A DNA stretch of 64,000 nt from Anaerolineae bacterium. Lineage in GTDB: Bacteria > Chloroflexota > Anaerolineae > Caldilineales > Caldilineaceae. This document shows, piece by piece, positions 21,778 to 29,328 of the stretch (the stretch's first letter is position 1; every line of letters starts with the position of its first letter). The position numbers and the translations under genes are program-made. The stretch is from NCBI GenBank assembly GCA_030432295.1, contig JAUIHI010000011.1, positions 62,001-126,000 on the forward strand, given 5' to 3'. Under the pieces are notes generated by a model. The model saw only the letters and a list, made by a program, of their open reading frames with translations. It was not told where the DNA came from and made no database searches.

Positions 21778-24700
21778 ATGCCCAACGATTTTGTCCATTT
21801 GCACACCCATTCAGAATACTCTTTACTGGACGGCCTAGGTCGAGTGAAAGACCTGGTAAAAGAGGCCAAACGGCTGGGCCACACCGCGCTGGCCCTTACG
21901 GATCACGGGGTGATGCACGGAGCGGTCGAATTTTTCCGCGCCTGCAAAGGGGCAGACATCCGCCCGATTATCGGCGTGGAGACGTACCAGACGGTCTGGG
22001 GACGGCCAATGGGGGGCCGGGATGCCCAGTTCGACAAAGAGAACTATCACCTGCTCCTCCTGGCCAAGGATATGGAGGGCTATCGCAATCTGCTCAAAAT
22101 CACCAGCGAGAGCAATGTAAACGGCTACTATTACAAGCCCCGGGTCGATCACGACTTTCTGGCGGCCCACGCCAAAGGGCTGGTTGCCACCACCGGCTGC
22201 CTGGGCGCGGAAGTCCCCCAACTCCTGATGCAGGGCAAAGAGAAGGAAGCCTACGAGCGCCTCGGCTGGTATGTGGACGTCTTTGGCAAAGAGAACTATT
22301 TCATCGAACTCCAGGAACATTCCATTCCCGAACTGGTGGAGGTGAACAAAGTTCTGGTGCCCTGGGCCGACAAATTTGGCCTGGGCCTGCTGGCCACCAA
22401 CGACGTCCACTACGTGGCCGAAGCCGACGGATCGCCCCACGATGTGCTGCTCTGCGTGCAGACCAGCGCCAAAGTGCAGGACGAGAAGCGGATGCGGTTG
22501 AGCGACCGCAGCTATTTTATGAAGAGTCGGGCGCAGATGGAGGATACCTTCCGTCCCCTGGTGGACCTGCCCGCCAGCGCCTTTGACAACGCCCTGCGCA
22601 TCGCCGAGATGTGCGATGTGGACCTGGAAGACCCCAACTATCACCTGCCCGACCTGCCCATTCCCGAGGGCTTCAACTACGAAAGCTATCTGCGCCACCT
22701 GACCGAAGAGGGCATGCGCCGCCTCTACGGCGACCGCACGGACCTGCCAGAGATGCAGGAGCGCAAAGAGCGGGAACTGCGCATCATCCACGAAATGGGC
22801 TTTGACGTCTACTTTCTGATTGTGCGCGACCTATGCGAATATGCCCGCAGCCGCAACATCTGGTGGAATGTGCGTGGCTCCGGTGCTGGCTCTCTCGTCG
22901 CCTACACAATCGGCATCACCGGCCTGGACCCGCTGAAGAACAATCTGATTTTCGAGCGCTTCCTCAATCCGGGCCGGGTGAGTATGCCCGACTTTGACCT
23001 GGACTACCCGGACGATCAGCGGGAGGAGATGATCCGCTATACGGTTGAAAAGTATGGCAGCGATCAGGTGGCCCAGATCGTCACCTTTGGCCGCATGAAA
23101 GCCCGGGCCGCCATCCGGGATGTGGGCCGGGCGTCGGACGTTTCGCTGGATCAGGTGGACCGCATCGCCAAACTCATCCCGGCCATCCCCGGCAAACCGG
23201 TGACGATTCAGGACGTTCTGACCGAAGGCCACGAATTCTACAACCCGGAATTGGTCGAGCTATACCGCAAAGAGAAGTGGGTCGCCGATCTGCTGGACAC
23301 ATCCAAACAGTTGGAGGGCGTGGCCCGACACGGGGGCATCCACGCCGCGGCGGTGATTGTGGCGGATCGGGAACTCTCCCACTACACGCCCCTCAGCCGG
23401 GGATCAAAAACATCCATCACCGGGACGATTACCCAGTACGAATTCCCGATTCTGGAATCCATCGGCCTGCTCAAAGTCGACTTTTTGGGGCTGAGCACCC
23501 TGACGGTCCTGCGCGAGGCGTGCCGGTTGATCCAGGAACATCACGGCATCGAATACCGGCTGGACAATATCCCCTTTGAGGGCGAAGCCGCCGAACCGGC
23601 CTTCCGTCTGCTCTCCAGCGGCGAGGTGGCCGGCGTCTTTCAGGTGGAGTCCCAGGGCATGCGTCGGGTGCTGACCGAGATGCGGCCCAGCGCCTTCGAG
23701 CACATCATCGCCACCATCTCCCTCTACCGTCCCGGCCCCCTGGAGTACATCCCCCTCTTCATCCGGCGTATGCACGGGGATGAAAAAGTGGAATACAAGC
23801 ATCCAGCGCTGGAATCAATTCTGGCCGAAACCTACGGAATCATCACCTATCAGGAGCAGATCATCCAGATTCTCAGCCAACTGGCGGGCTATACCCCCGG
23901 CGAGGCGGACCTGGTGCGGCGGGCCATCAGTAAGAAAAAGGCCAGCGATATTGAAAAACACAAGAAAATCTTCGTGGCGGGCTGCGAGAAGAACGGCATC
24001 CCCACCAAAGCAGCAGAAGCGATCTACGGGGATATCGAATTTTTCGCCCGTTACGGATTCAACAAGTCGCATGCGGCAGACTACGCGGTCATCACCGTCC
24101 AGACCGCCTATCTGAAGGCCCTCTACCCGGTGGAGTATATGGCTGCGCTGCTGCTGGTGGAGCGGGACAAGACCGATAAGGTGATCAACTTCATCAACGA
24201 ATGTCGGCGTATGGGCATTCAGGTGCTGCCGCCGGACATCAACTACAGCGGGCTGGACTTTGAGAAACAGGCCGTGCCGCCCGACTCTGCCCAGTTGGCC
24301 CTGAACAAAGACCCCGGCCTGCAATTCGACTTCCCTGTGCCCGAAGGCGCGGCCATCCGTTTTGGCATGGCCGCGGTCAAAAATGTGGGCGAGGGACCAG
24401 TCAATGTCATCCTGCGCAATCGTCGGGAAGAGGGGCCGTTCGAGAGCCTGGAAGATTTCTGCGACCGGGTGGACCTGCGCCAGGTCAACAAACGGGCGCT
24501 GGAATGTCTGATCAAAGTGGGCGCGCTGGACCGCTTTGGCCGCCGCCGTCCCCTGCTGGATGTGCTGGACCAGATGATGGCTCGCTCCGCTAAAAAACAT
24601 GATGCGCTGGATAAAGGCCAACCATCCCTCTTCGATAATTCGGAGGACACAGGTAAGGCTGAAGTCGTGATCATCAATTTACCATTTGTGGAAGACGCCA

Positions 24701-25926
24701 AAAGCCGGGAGCGACTGCTTTGGGAGAAGGAATTGTTGGGCGTCTTTGCCAGCAGCCACCCCCTGCAACAGTTGAGTGTGGACCTGAGCAAAATTGTCAC
24801 CTGCTCCTGCGCGGAGCTGAACGATAGCTACGACGAGCGCACTGTCACAGTGGCCGGGATGATTGCCAGCATCCGCACGACGCTGACGAAAAAGAGCGAC
24901 AAAATGGCCTTTGTCCAGTTGGAAGATTTGCAGGGCCAGTGCGAAGTGGTCGTCTTCCCCCGCACCTATCAGGAATATCAGGAACAGTTGGAGCAGGACC
25001 GAGTGGTGCTGGTGAAGGGCAAGGCCCAGAGCCGCAACGGGCGCACAAGCGTCCTGGCCGATTCGATCCAGACCGCCGTAGACATCGCCCACGAAATCGT
25101 CAGCGACGAGGAGAAGTATCAGGACAAGTTGCTGGACGTGCCCACCTTCAACGGAACGGGCGCGGATGAAGACGACTTTGGGCTGGCCGATCCCAGCGAC
25201 GAGGCAGAAGTGGACGAAGTGCCACGGGTGATGGGCGGCGAAGTGATGCGTGAACACACAAACGGCTACAGCGGCGACACAATTGCGGTCAAAACACCTG
25301 CGCCCGCGGTCGTGCGAATGCCCCAAGCCGTGGCCGAATCTTTCGATCCCTTCGCCGGGTTGGACAACGACGACACGCCGTCCCCGGAGAGCAACCCCTT
25401 TGCCGACGAAATCCCCGATTGGATGCTGGCAGAGATGGGGGGCGGACAGGCTGACAGCGTGACAAAGAGACCAGGCGACAAGCCGTCTGCCAACGGGTCA
25501 CACGCGGGGAAGAATGGGAAACACGCGCCGGAAAACGGTCACCGGTCGCCAGTGAACAGTGACCCGTCAACAGTTGCCAGTGAGCAGTCGCCTGTCGCCA
25601 GCCACCGGTCACCCGTGACCCGTGATCCATCGCCAGCCCCCAATCTCCAATCGCCGATCTCCAATCCCCAGTCCCCAATTCCCACCCACCGCCGCACCTT
25701 GCGCATCACCTTCAGCCGGTCGGGGCAGTTGGATCGGGACAAATACCGGCTGCGGGAGATTGTGGACGCGGTGCGGGACCCCAAAGGGAGAGACGGATTC
25801 GTGATTGTGATGGAATCGGACGGGACTCGCCACCAGTTGGCCTTTCCTAACGAGTACTGCACAGCCAGCGACCGGCTCATCAACGAACTGCGTACCCATT
25901 TCCGGGTGGATGTCGCGGTGGAATAA
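21778..25926 (+). CDS. dnaE: DNA polymerase III alpha subunit (DnaE1)
   Basis: A 1382-residue replicative polymerase. The N-terminal PHP domain starts [18 protein letters not shown] (HTH metal ligands at about 8-10, LTDHGV following). The palm has [10 protein letters not shown] near residue 404 (catalytic aspartates), preceded by [16 protein letters not shown]. The finger/thumb region contains [17 protein letters not shown] and [21 protein letters not shown] helix-hairpin-helix and an OB domain ([20 protein letters not shown], about 1020-1110) follow. The C-terminus is unusual: about 85 residues (1220-1304) of low complexity are encoded by repeat words, before a final domain of about 75 residues. 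Likely -35/-10 boxes are TTGTTT and TATGAT near 21635-21663. Confidence 0.97.
25535..25690. repeat. In-frame repeat block in dnaE 3' region
   Basis: Degenerate tandem words such as GGTCACCCGTGACCCGTGA and CCAATCCCCAGTCCCCAAT encode a Ser/Pro-rich linker ([12 protein letters not shown]). The same 7- to 10-nt words occur as GATTGGGGATTGGG inside the glycosyltransferase gene. It resembles the short tandem (STRR-like) repeats known from filamentous cyanobacteria. Confidence 0.75.
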
Positions 25927-26667
25927 TTGGACAGAGTCGTGTCTATTGTCAATCAGTATAGCCCAAGTATAGAAGCCCTTGTGCGGGCCGTTGGCCAAAG
26001 CCCGGACGGGGTAGCCGTGCTGGCCTGGGAAGGTGAGATTCTCTACGCCAACCCGGCCTGGATGGAGATGCACGGCTACAGCGCCGAGGAAAGCATTGGC
26101 CGCCGCATTCAGGACCTCTACCCTGGGGAGGCATTGGCGCGCCATGCGGAAGAAACCATTCGCCATTTGGCTGTTCAAGACAGTTACCAAATCGAACTGA
26201 GCCATTTCAAGCGCGACGGCTCACCCTTCCAAGCCTGGCTGATTACGACACTGCTGCGGGATGAGCGAGGGAAGCCGAACGGTTTTGTATTGACAGCCAG
26301 GGATGTGACCGAATGGAACCGGCTGAAAGAGGCGCTGGAGGCAGAAAAGATACGGCTGGAACAGCAATATCAGCGACAGCAAGCGCTCGCCAATATCGAA
26401 CTGGCGATCAACGAACCGGACGAACTGGTGATAGCGCTTGACCGCATTGTGGAGATTGTGACCGAATTCTTGCCCGCCAGTGGAGGAGCCAGCATTCTGC
26501 TCTGGGACGCGGCCAACCAGACCTATACGGTCAGTGCCTCGTCCGTGCCCGGCCAAACCCCATCGATTGCAGCCCGGCGCATCCGCGAGAAGGGGGGGGG
26601 CCACCCGCTGGATTATCGACAATCGGATGCCTGTGGTCGTCCCCGATGTCAGCGAAGACTCTTTTGA
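25927..26667 (+). CDS. PAS-GAF histidine kinase, N-terminal fragment (frameshifted)
   Basis: 246 residues: a PAS domain (about 15-130; GEILYANPAWMEMHGYSAEESIG, then FVLTARDVTEWNRLK), a coiled linker and the first half of a GAF domain ([14 protein letters not shown]). The frame then leaves the family sequence within a 31-nt insertion at 26572-26602 that ends in nine Gs, and stops at 26667. The tandem paralogue downstream lacks the insertion. The TTG start abuts the TAA of dnaE, with GTG at 25939 as an alternative. As it stands the kinase half is out of frame; loss of one G would restore it. It could be a dead gene, a phase-variable gene or a sequencing error. Confidence 0.75.
   Translation: MDRVVSIVNQYSPSIEALVRAVGQSPDGVAVLAWEGEILYANPAWMEMHGYSAEESIGRRIQDLYPGEALARHAEETIRHLAVQDSYQIELSHFKRDGSPFQAWLITTLLRDERGKPNGFVLTARDVTEWNRLKEALEAEKIRLEQQYQRQQALANIELAINEPDELVIALDRIVEIVTEFLPASGGASILLWDAANQTYTVSASSVPGQTPSIAARRIREKGGGHPLDYRQSDACGRPRCQRRLF
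26572..26602. repeat. 31-nt insertion with nine-G tract
   Basis: This stretch is absent from the matching place of the paralogue, where TCGATCGCT runs straight into ACCCGCTGG. It contains G x 9 at 26592-26600. Its length is 3n+1, which causes the frameshift. Confidence 0.75.
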
Positions 26668-27592
26668 GGTCAATTCACTCCTGACCGAATTTGGACTGCA
26701 CGCCTATGTGGGCGTCCCCCTCCTCTCCGACACCGACTGCATCGGTGTTCTCTATGCCCTGGACACAGCACCCCGTGACTACTCAGCCAACGACGTGGAC
26801 TTTCTGGCCACCCTGGCGGCCAGGGCGAGTACGGCTATCAGCAAAGTTCAACTCTACGAGAAACTGCGCGAGACAAATTCAATTTTGCAGAGTCAGGCTG
26901 GCGATCTGGCCGTGCGCAACGCGGACCTGGACGCCTTTGCCCATTCGGTGGCCCACGACCTGAAGAATCCCCTCACGTCGATTATGGGCTATGCAGAGAT
27001 GCTCCTGGATGATTATGACCTGCTCGAGGATGAGGTACGCAAGGAGTTTTTGAGTATCATCGCCCAGCGGGGCGTGAAGATGCGCCAGATTGTGGATGAA
27101 CTGTTGCTAATGTCCCAACTTCGCAACCGGGAAGTGCAACTTTCGCCGCTAAATATGCAGGCAATCGTCGACGAGGCCGTCCACCGATTGGATGCAGTTT
27201 GTCGGGAAAAGGGTGCGGTTATCCATCTTCCCAAGGGCTGGCCGCCTGCCTTGGGCTATGCCCAATGGCTGGAAGAGGTCTGGACCAACTACCTGAGCAA
27301 TGCGCTCAAGTATGGCGGGCGTCCGCCAGAAATCTGGCTGGGTGCCAGCAAAAGTGATGCCGAATCAGTCAGGTTCTGGGTAAAAGACAACGGCCCGGGG
27401 CTTTCCGCCGAAGATCAGAAATTGCTCTTCCTGCCCTTCACCCGTCTGCACACCACCCAGGAAGAAGGCCACGGCCTGGGGCTTTCGATTGTCAAGCGCA
27501 TTGTGGAAAAATGTCAGGGCAGGGTGGGTGTGGACAGCACACCCGGCACTGGGAGTATTTTCTGGTTTACATTACCCCAAGAGGAGAGGTAA
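26627..27592 (+). CDS. GAF-histidine kinase, C-terminal fragment (frameshifted)
   Basis: Second part of the split kinase, about 321 residues from an internal ATG. It contains the rest of the GAF domain ([20 protein letters not shown]), a HisKA dimerisation helix with the phosphoacceptor His in [20 protein letters not shown], and an HATPase domain with NYLSNALKYGG (N box), VKDNGPGLS (G1) and [12 protein letters not shown] (G2). The catalytic part is intact and matches the downstream paralogue closely, so the shift is recent. There is no ribosome site at the internal ATG, so separate translation is doubtful. No response regulator is adjacent. Confidence 0.75.
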   Translation: MPVVVPDVSEDSFEVNSLLTEFGLHAYVGVPLLSDTDCIGVLYALDTAPRDYSANDVDFLATLAARASTAISKVQLYEKLRETNSILQSQAGDLAVRNADLDAFAHSVAHDLKNPLTSIMGYAEMLLDDYDLLEDEVRKEFLSIIAQRGVKMRQIVDELLLMSQLRNREVQLSPLNMQAIVDEAVHRLDAVCREKGAVIHLPKGWPPALGYAQWLEEVWTNYLSNALKYGGRPPEIWLGASKSDAESVRFWVKDNGPGLSAEDQKLLFLPFTRLHTTQEEGHGLGLSIVKRIVEKCQGRVGVDSTPGTGSIFWFTLPQEER

Positions 27593-27705: not shown

Positions 27706-29328
27706 GTGCCAATTTCTACACGGAAATCTATAAATATAGAAGCATTGACCCGTGCGCTTGCCCAAAGCCCGGATGGGATCGCCTTGTTGGATGTGAACGG
27801 GGTCTATCTGTACGTCAACCCCGCTTGGGAAAAGATCCACGGTTTTAGCGCCGAAGATAGCATTGGCCACACTGACGATGAACTCTATTTGAATGAAGCA
27901 TCTGTCCGCAACAGAGCAGAAGGCAGCAGGCGGATGGAAGGCAAAGAGAGCACTGAATTTGAGTTCAATGTCACCAGAAGCGGCGTCACCCCCATGCGGG
28001 TGCGGCTTATGATGACCAAAATCCGGGATGAGGCAGAAAACCACACGGGCTATCTCGTAACAAGCCGAGACGTCACCGAGCCAAATCGACTAAAACAGGC
28101 GCTGGAAGACGAAAAGGCACGATTGAATCAGCAGTATCAACGGCAAAAGGCCCTTGCCTCTATCCAACTGGCTATCAACGAACCGGACGAACTAGCGACA
28201 GCACTTGACCAGATTGTAGAGATGGTGACCGAACTCTTACCTGCCAGCGGAGGGGCCAGCATCCTCCTTGGGAACGCAAGCGACCAGACATACACTGTCA
28301 GCGCATCCTCTGCATCCGGCCAACTCCCGTCGATCGCTACCCGCTGGATTATCGACAACCGGAAGCCTGTGGTTGTCAGTGATGTCCAAAACGATCCCTT
28401 TGGGACCGATTCCTTGCTGAAAGAGTTTGGGCTGCACGCCTACGTGGGCGTTCCCCTCCTTTCCGACAACCTCTGCCTGGGCGTTCTCTATGCCCTGGAC
28501 ACAGCCCCTCGTGAATACTCAACCAACGATATGGCTTTCCTGACCACACTGGCGGACAGGGCGAGTGCGGCTATCAGCAAAGTCCAGCTCTACGAGCAGC
28601 TACGCGAGGCAAACAGGATATTGCGTAGTCAGACTGCCGACCTGGCCGTGCGCAACGCAGACCTGGACGCCTTTGCCCATTCGGTGGCCCACGACCTGAA
28701 GAACCCCCTCACGACGATTATGGGTTTTGCGGAGATGCTCCTGGATGATTATGGCCTGCTGGACGACGAGGAGCGCAAGAAATATATGGGCATCATTGCC
28801 CAGCGGGGCGTGAAGATGCGCCAGATTGTCGACGAACTGTTGCTCATGTCCCAACTTCGCAACCAGGAAGTGCAACTTTCGCCGCTGAATATGCAGGCAA
28901 TCGTAGACGAGGCGTTGCAACGGTTGGACACTATCCGTAGAGAGCGGGGCGCGATCGTTCACATCCCCGAAAGTTGGCCGCCTGCCTTGGGCTATGCCCA
29001 ATGGCTGGAAGAGGTCTGGGTCAACTACCTGAGCAATGGGCTCAAGTATGGCGGGCGTCCGCCAGAAATATGGCTGGGCGCCCGCGAAGACGCCGCCGAA
29101 TCAGTCAGATTCTGGATAAAGGACAACGGCCCAGGGCTTTCCGCCGAAGATCAGAAATTGCTCTTTCTGCCCTTCACCCGTCTGCACACCAGCCAGGAAG
29201 AAGGCCACGGCCTGGGGCTTTCGATTGTCAAGCGTATTGTGGAAAAATGTCGGGGCAGCGTGGGTGTGGATAGCACACCCGGTGCGGGGAGCACCTTTTG
29301 GTTTACGCTGCCCCGAGCAAAGGAGTAA
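27706..29328 (+). CDS. PAS-GAF sensor histidine kinase
   Basis: 540 residues, cytosolic, no membrane helix. Domains: PAS (about 15-125; [22 protein letters not shown]), linker helix with [19 protein letters not shown] (about 160-305), HisKA with the phosphoacceptor His in [20 protein letters not shown] (near 330), and HATPase with [20 protein letters not shown] and [12 protein letters not shown]. It starts at a GTG (27706) without a clear ribosome site. A TGATAGAAT extended -10-like box stands about 30 nt upstream. It arose by tandem duplication with the frameshifted gene before it. The signal and the partner regulator are unknown; no receiver-domain gene is nearby. Confidence 0.92.

Follow-up and report, generated by a model that had tools for sequence, protein, structure and literature searches.

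Does the run of nine G residues that interrupts a histidine kinase gene in this 64-kb stretch of DNA (hereafter the window, meaning the whole of the stretch analyzed) act as an on/off switch, or does it mark an ordinary mutation or a mistake in the assembled sequence? The gene, designated copy 1, is the first of two tandem genes for PAS-GAF histidine kinases, and its frame is broken in the assembled sequence. Positions 26572–26602 read GCCCGGCGCATCCGCGAGAAGGGGGGGGGCC, with the nine Gs at 26592–26600 (+ strand); this tract is the longest G run in the window and the only one there of nine or more. The reading frame of copy 1 changes at the tract and leaves two open reading frames in different frames. 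The 5' half (25927–26667, + strand, 246 amino acids) encodes the PAS domain (PAS_9, 2.1e-16) and the first part of the GAF domain, and the 3' half, in the +1 frame (26480–27592, + strand), encodes the rest of GAF, HisKA (about 26930–27127), and HATPase_c (about 27260–27583) and is open to a normal stop. The two overlap, and when combined they match the intact paralogue, copy 2 (27706–29328, + strand, 540 amino acids); Pfam detected PAS, GAF, HisKA, and HATPase_c in the halves of copy 1 taken together, as it did in copy 2. An earlier note on this DNA had placed a G9 tract at the kinase frame break, and the sequence and open reading frames bear this out. As in a contingency gene, a simple-sequence tract within the coding region sets the frame by its length; as in a frameshift pseudogene, the frame is broken relative to intact orthologues.

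We searched 60 related genomes, one genome per species, and found orthologues of copy 1 in five of the six congeners (G001, G003, G004, G005, and G006), with 65 to 90% amino acid identity between the 5' half and the single orthologue of each. Four orthologues have a single open frame across the site (the G006 contig starts within the gene), and the fifth, from G004, is interrupted solely by contig ends. A scan of public genome contigs yielded distant relatives only, at most 53% identical, with Anaerolineae MAGs among the closest named. An in-frame 30-nt (10-codon) loop of the GAF domain, located between PSI/PSL-like and ATRWI segments, is kept in all five congeneric orthologues and missing from copy 2, and the loop is also filled in several distant homologues. 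According to DNA and protein alignment with the five orthologues, 26572–26602 (+ strand) comprises this conserved loop and one surplus G, so that copy 1 inherited 30 of these 31 bases and has the surplus G as its sole novelty. Because the congeneric orthologues all have the loop and the paralogue alone is without it, copy 2 is the changed copy, having undergone a 30-nt in-frame deletion; its junction, placed by aligning copy 2 to copy 1 and the orthologues, lies at 28330–28339 (+ strand), where the loop is gone between ...PSI and ATRW.... The earlier note had read this difference with the opposite polarity, as a 31-nt insertion in copy 1 that is absent from its paralogue, and the orthologue alignment rules out such an insertion: the paralogue lost 30 nt and copy 1 gained one base. 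Its further claim that copy 1 has one G too many was upheld, the single additional base relative to the orthologues falling inside the G run.

The surroundings of the gene are shared with the congeners. The dnaE gene (21778–25926, + strand) lies immediately upstream of copy 1, and it adjoins the kinase orthologue in G001, G003, G004, and G005; orf29397 is on the other side of the orthologue in G003, G005, and, across a contig break, G004. One kinase copy was seen at the locus in each of the five congeners. The occurrence of a PAS-GAF histidine kinase directly 3' of dnaE in at least four congeners (21778–27592 in the window) amounts to an apparent operon of a replicative polymerase with a sensor kinase, which is unusual. 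The tandem kinases themselves (25927–27592 versus 27706–29328) are mosaic, with a dS of 0.45 between the kinase halves and 1.43 between the PAS-GAF halves, and copy 1 compared with its G006 orthologue gave 0.96 and 0.76, respectively. Such a pattern suggests that the kinase half underwent gene conversion or that copy 2 had its sensor replaced. The dnaE gene of G001 is split by an intein of about 1 kb with a LAGLIDADG domain (L069:3659–4683; Intein_splicing 1.2e-24, LAGLIDADG_3 2.3e-15), that of G004 (L073) has a similar gap of about 1 kb at roughly the same place, and dnaE of the window is without this type of interruption. Near the C-terminal end of the latter (25460–25700) is a low-complexity linker with short degenerate repeats (SPVAS/NPQSP-like), apparently much expanded in G004 (L073).

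Copy 1 shows no sign of decay. Its 3' half is 81% identical to copy 2, with a dN/dS of 0.24, and is changed at 3 of 167 residues that do not vary among copy 2 and four orthologues, whereas the intact copy 2 is changed at 10 of 174 residues that are constant among copy 1 and the orthologues. At first and second codon positions that are identical in copy 2 and all four outgroups, copy 1 exhibited 5 changes in 409 sites compared to about 79 expected if it had been neutral since the copies diverged. The 95% upper bound on the unconstrained time of the 3' half is about 15% of the branch, and neutrality over the whole branch yielded a stop-free frame in only 0.25% of simulations. Relaxed selection after the break, as would mark a frameshift pseudogene, was not detected in this half, and the scarcity of private changes there rules out a long-standing pseudogene. 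These counts agree with the description of both halves in the earlier note as otherwise intact. Given the lack of decay, the break is very recent, is present in some cells only, or is not real. The view that it is recent or reversible is thus sustained with regard to the preserved 3' half, but a break that is possibly no more than a consensus error falls outside it; the absence of decay would be equally expected from a reversible switch or from an error in an intact gene.

The G tract is itself of recent origin. The longest G runs at the site in the five congeneric orthologues are 2, 3, 3, 4, and 6 nt; because these runs extend only from G2 to G6, the tract is not a contingency site kept among relatives and appears to have arisen by codon drift at Lys-Gly-Gly-Ala. 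Runs of eight or more Gs are rarer in the window than chance, with 4 observed versus 9.1 expected from dinucleotide shuffles. The genome (6.72 Mb in 61 contigs) contains 20 runs of G9 or more, and a G9 run is therein uncommon, not special. We tested 78 G/C tracts of at least 8 nt (all 20 of the G9+ runs plus 58 taken from among the G8 runs) for a coding frame on either side, using a codon-usage score trained on the window that can miss short genes: 56 tracts lie within one open coding frame, 21 lie elsewhere, and one, the present G9, is at a frame change. The unusual feature is this coincidence of a G run with a frame change, which is unique among the 78. That no other tract shows it is evidence against a genome-wide homopolymer error, and systematic homopolymer miscalling was rejected on this basis; it likewise weighs against a whole set of contingency genes governed by G tracts. 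Nearly every other kinase match in this genome falls within a single open frame, and a candidate for a second truncated kinase was discarded when the TGA in L006 proved to be a normal stop.

The explanation that we favor, by a narrow balance of the evidence, is an ordinary and very recent loss-of-function slippage indel in copy 1, with the tandem gene as a backup. According to this scheme, copy 1 is the direct orthologue of the single PAS-GAF histidine kinase that the congeners maintain immediately 3' of dnaE; the gene would have been duplicated in tandem in this lineage, and the 10-codon GAF loop was lost from copy 2. Codon drift at the Lys-Gly-Gly-Ala of the loop in copy 1 may have created an uninterrupted G run by chance, and replication slippage within it may have added one G, placing the kinase domains out of frame and stranding a 3' half too recently for it to have decayed. 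The sequences show the frame break, the ancestral loop, the deletion in copy 2, and the lack of decay, whereas we infer that slippage was the cause, that the extra G exists in the organism, and that copy 1 yields no active product; the indel is probably strain-level or polymorphic. The intact stretch in the relatives has no long G run, which points to an ordinary slip, or a slip in assembly, rather than to a dedicated switch.

An assembly or consensus error, by which the tract gained a G that the real DNA lacks, with copy 1 encoding an intact kinase, is a serious competitor to which we assign a substantial probability, short of an even chance. A one-base consensus error in the G run fits every observation equally well: neither half of copy 1 shows decay, the orthologues are all in frame, and the break coincides exactly with the window's longest G run. 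According to a survey of frame transitions (GeneTack), isolated frameshifts validated by homology are mostly sequencing errors or recent indels, and phase variation and programmed sites cluster across relatives (PMC3711429). The frame break of copy 1 is an isolated case, not clustered across relatives; like the singleton transitions and recent frameshift pseudogenes of that survey, it is an isolated break with intact homologues and no conserved tract, and no tested feature of copy 1 differs from them (PMC3711429). Homology-validated singletons are expected to be mostly sequencing errors and not genuine indels (PMC3711429). Counting against an error, none of the other 56 in-frame G/C tracts is at a frame change, so there is no general homopolymer problem, and the other kinase genes are almost uniformly open. 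Since the other genomic tracts behave well, we rank a real slippage indel slightly above the consensus error.

Selected phase variation, with the G run serving as a contingency locus whose slipped-strand mispairing turns the kinase on and off, is unlikely. A coding G9 is long enough for slippage, both halves of copy 1 are preserved, and the mechanism has precedents. In Bordetella pertussis, a poly-C tract in bvgS is on at C6 and off at C7 (PMC1891110); as in copy 1, a single added base in a G/C homopolymer shifts the frame of a sensor histidine kinase. In contrast to copy 1, which is known from one genome and whose congeners are without the tract, the length variation and phenotype of bvgS were shown in strains and mixed cultures. 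FlgS of Campylobacter jejuni is a phase-variable sensor kinase, and flgS/flgR resemble copy 1 as two-component genes toggled by indels in coding homopolymers, although the flgR tracts are A/T and reversion was experimentally observed there (PMC3930126). With BvgS (PMC1891110) and FlgS (PMC3930126) already known as phase-variable sensor kinases, even a true switch in copy 1 would add one more case to an established kind. The positive evidence for a selected switch is the tract itself; opposing it, the long tract is missing from all five congeners, no other coding tract among the 78 was caught off, long G runs in the window are below the shuffle expectation, and the one genome of the species compared offers a single tract length. 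A dedicated contingency switch is not supported for a tract that is G2–G6 in the orthologues, in a genome with no other gene broken at the 78 tracts. Of 15 papers mentioning both phase variation and Chloroflexi, 10 were listed, and to judge by title and abstract none of these 10 deals with phase variation in the phylum.

It is quite improbable that a newly arisen, lineage-specific G-tract switch toggles one of the tandem kinases. The kinase halves of the two copies are similar and their PAS sensors have diverged, and with such a switch cells would differ in the sensor that feeds a shared kinase output. Recoding or split expression, with a +1 slip by the ribosome or polymerase providing some full-length kinase or with a restart of the 3' half (e.g., at ATG 26627, yielding a PAS-less kinase), is very improbable: the two open reading frames of copy 1 overlap and the 3' half retains conserved kinase domains, but the frame arrangement and tract are conserved in no relative, programmed recoding sites are normally conserved, no clear Shine-Dalgarno sequence precedes ATG 26627, and the restart product would begin mid-GAF.

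The locus offers a caution, in that polarity judged from a paralogue alone was misleading as to insertion versus deletion and a handful of congeneric orthologues corrected it. If the tract truly varies in the population, copy 1 would be the first phase-variable sensor kinase in Chloroflexota, within the literature searched, and its tandem partner would provide a built-in comparison.
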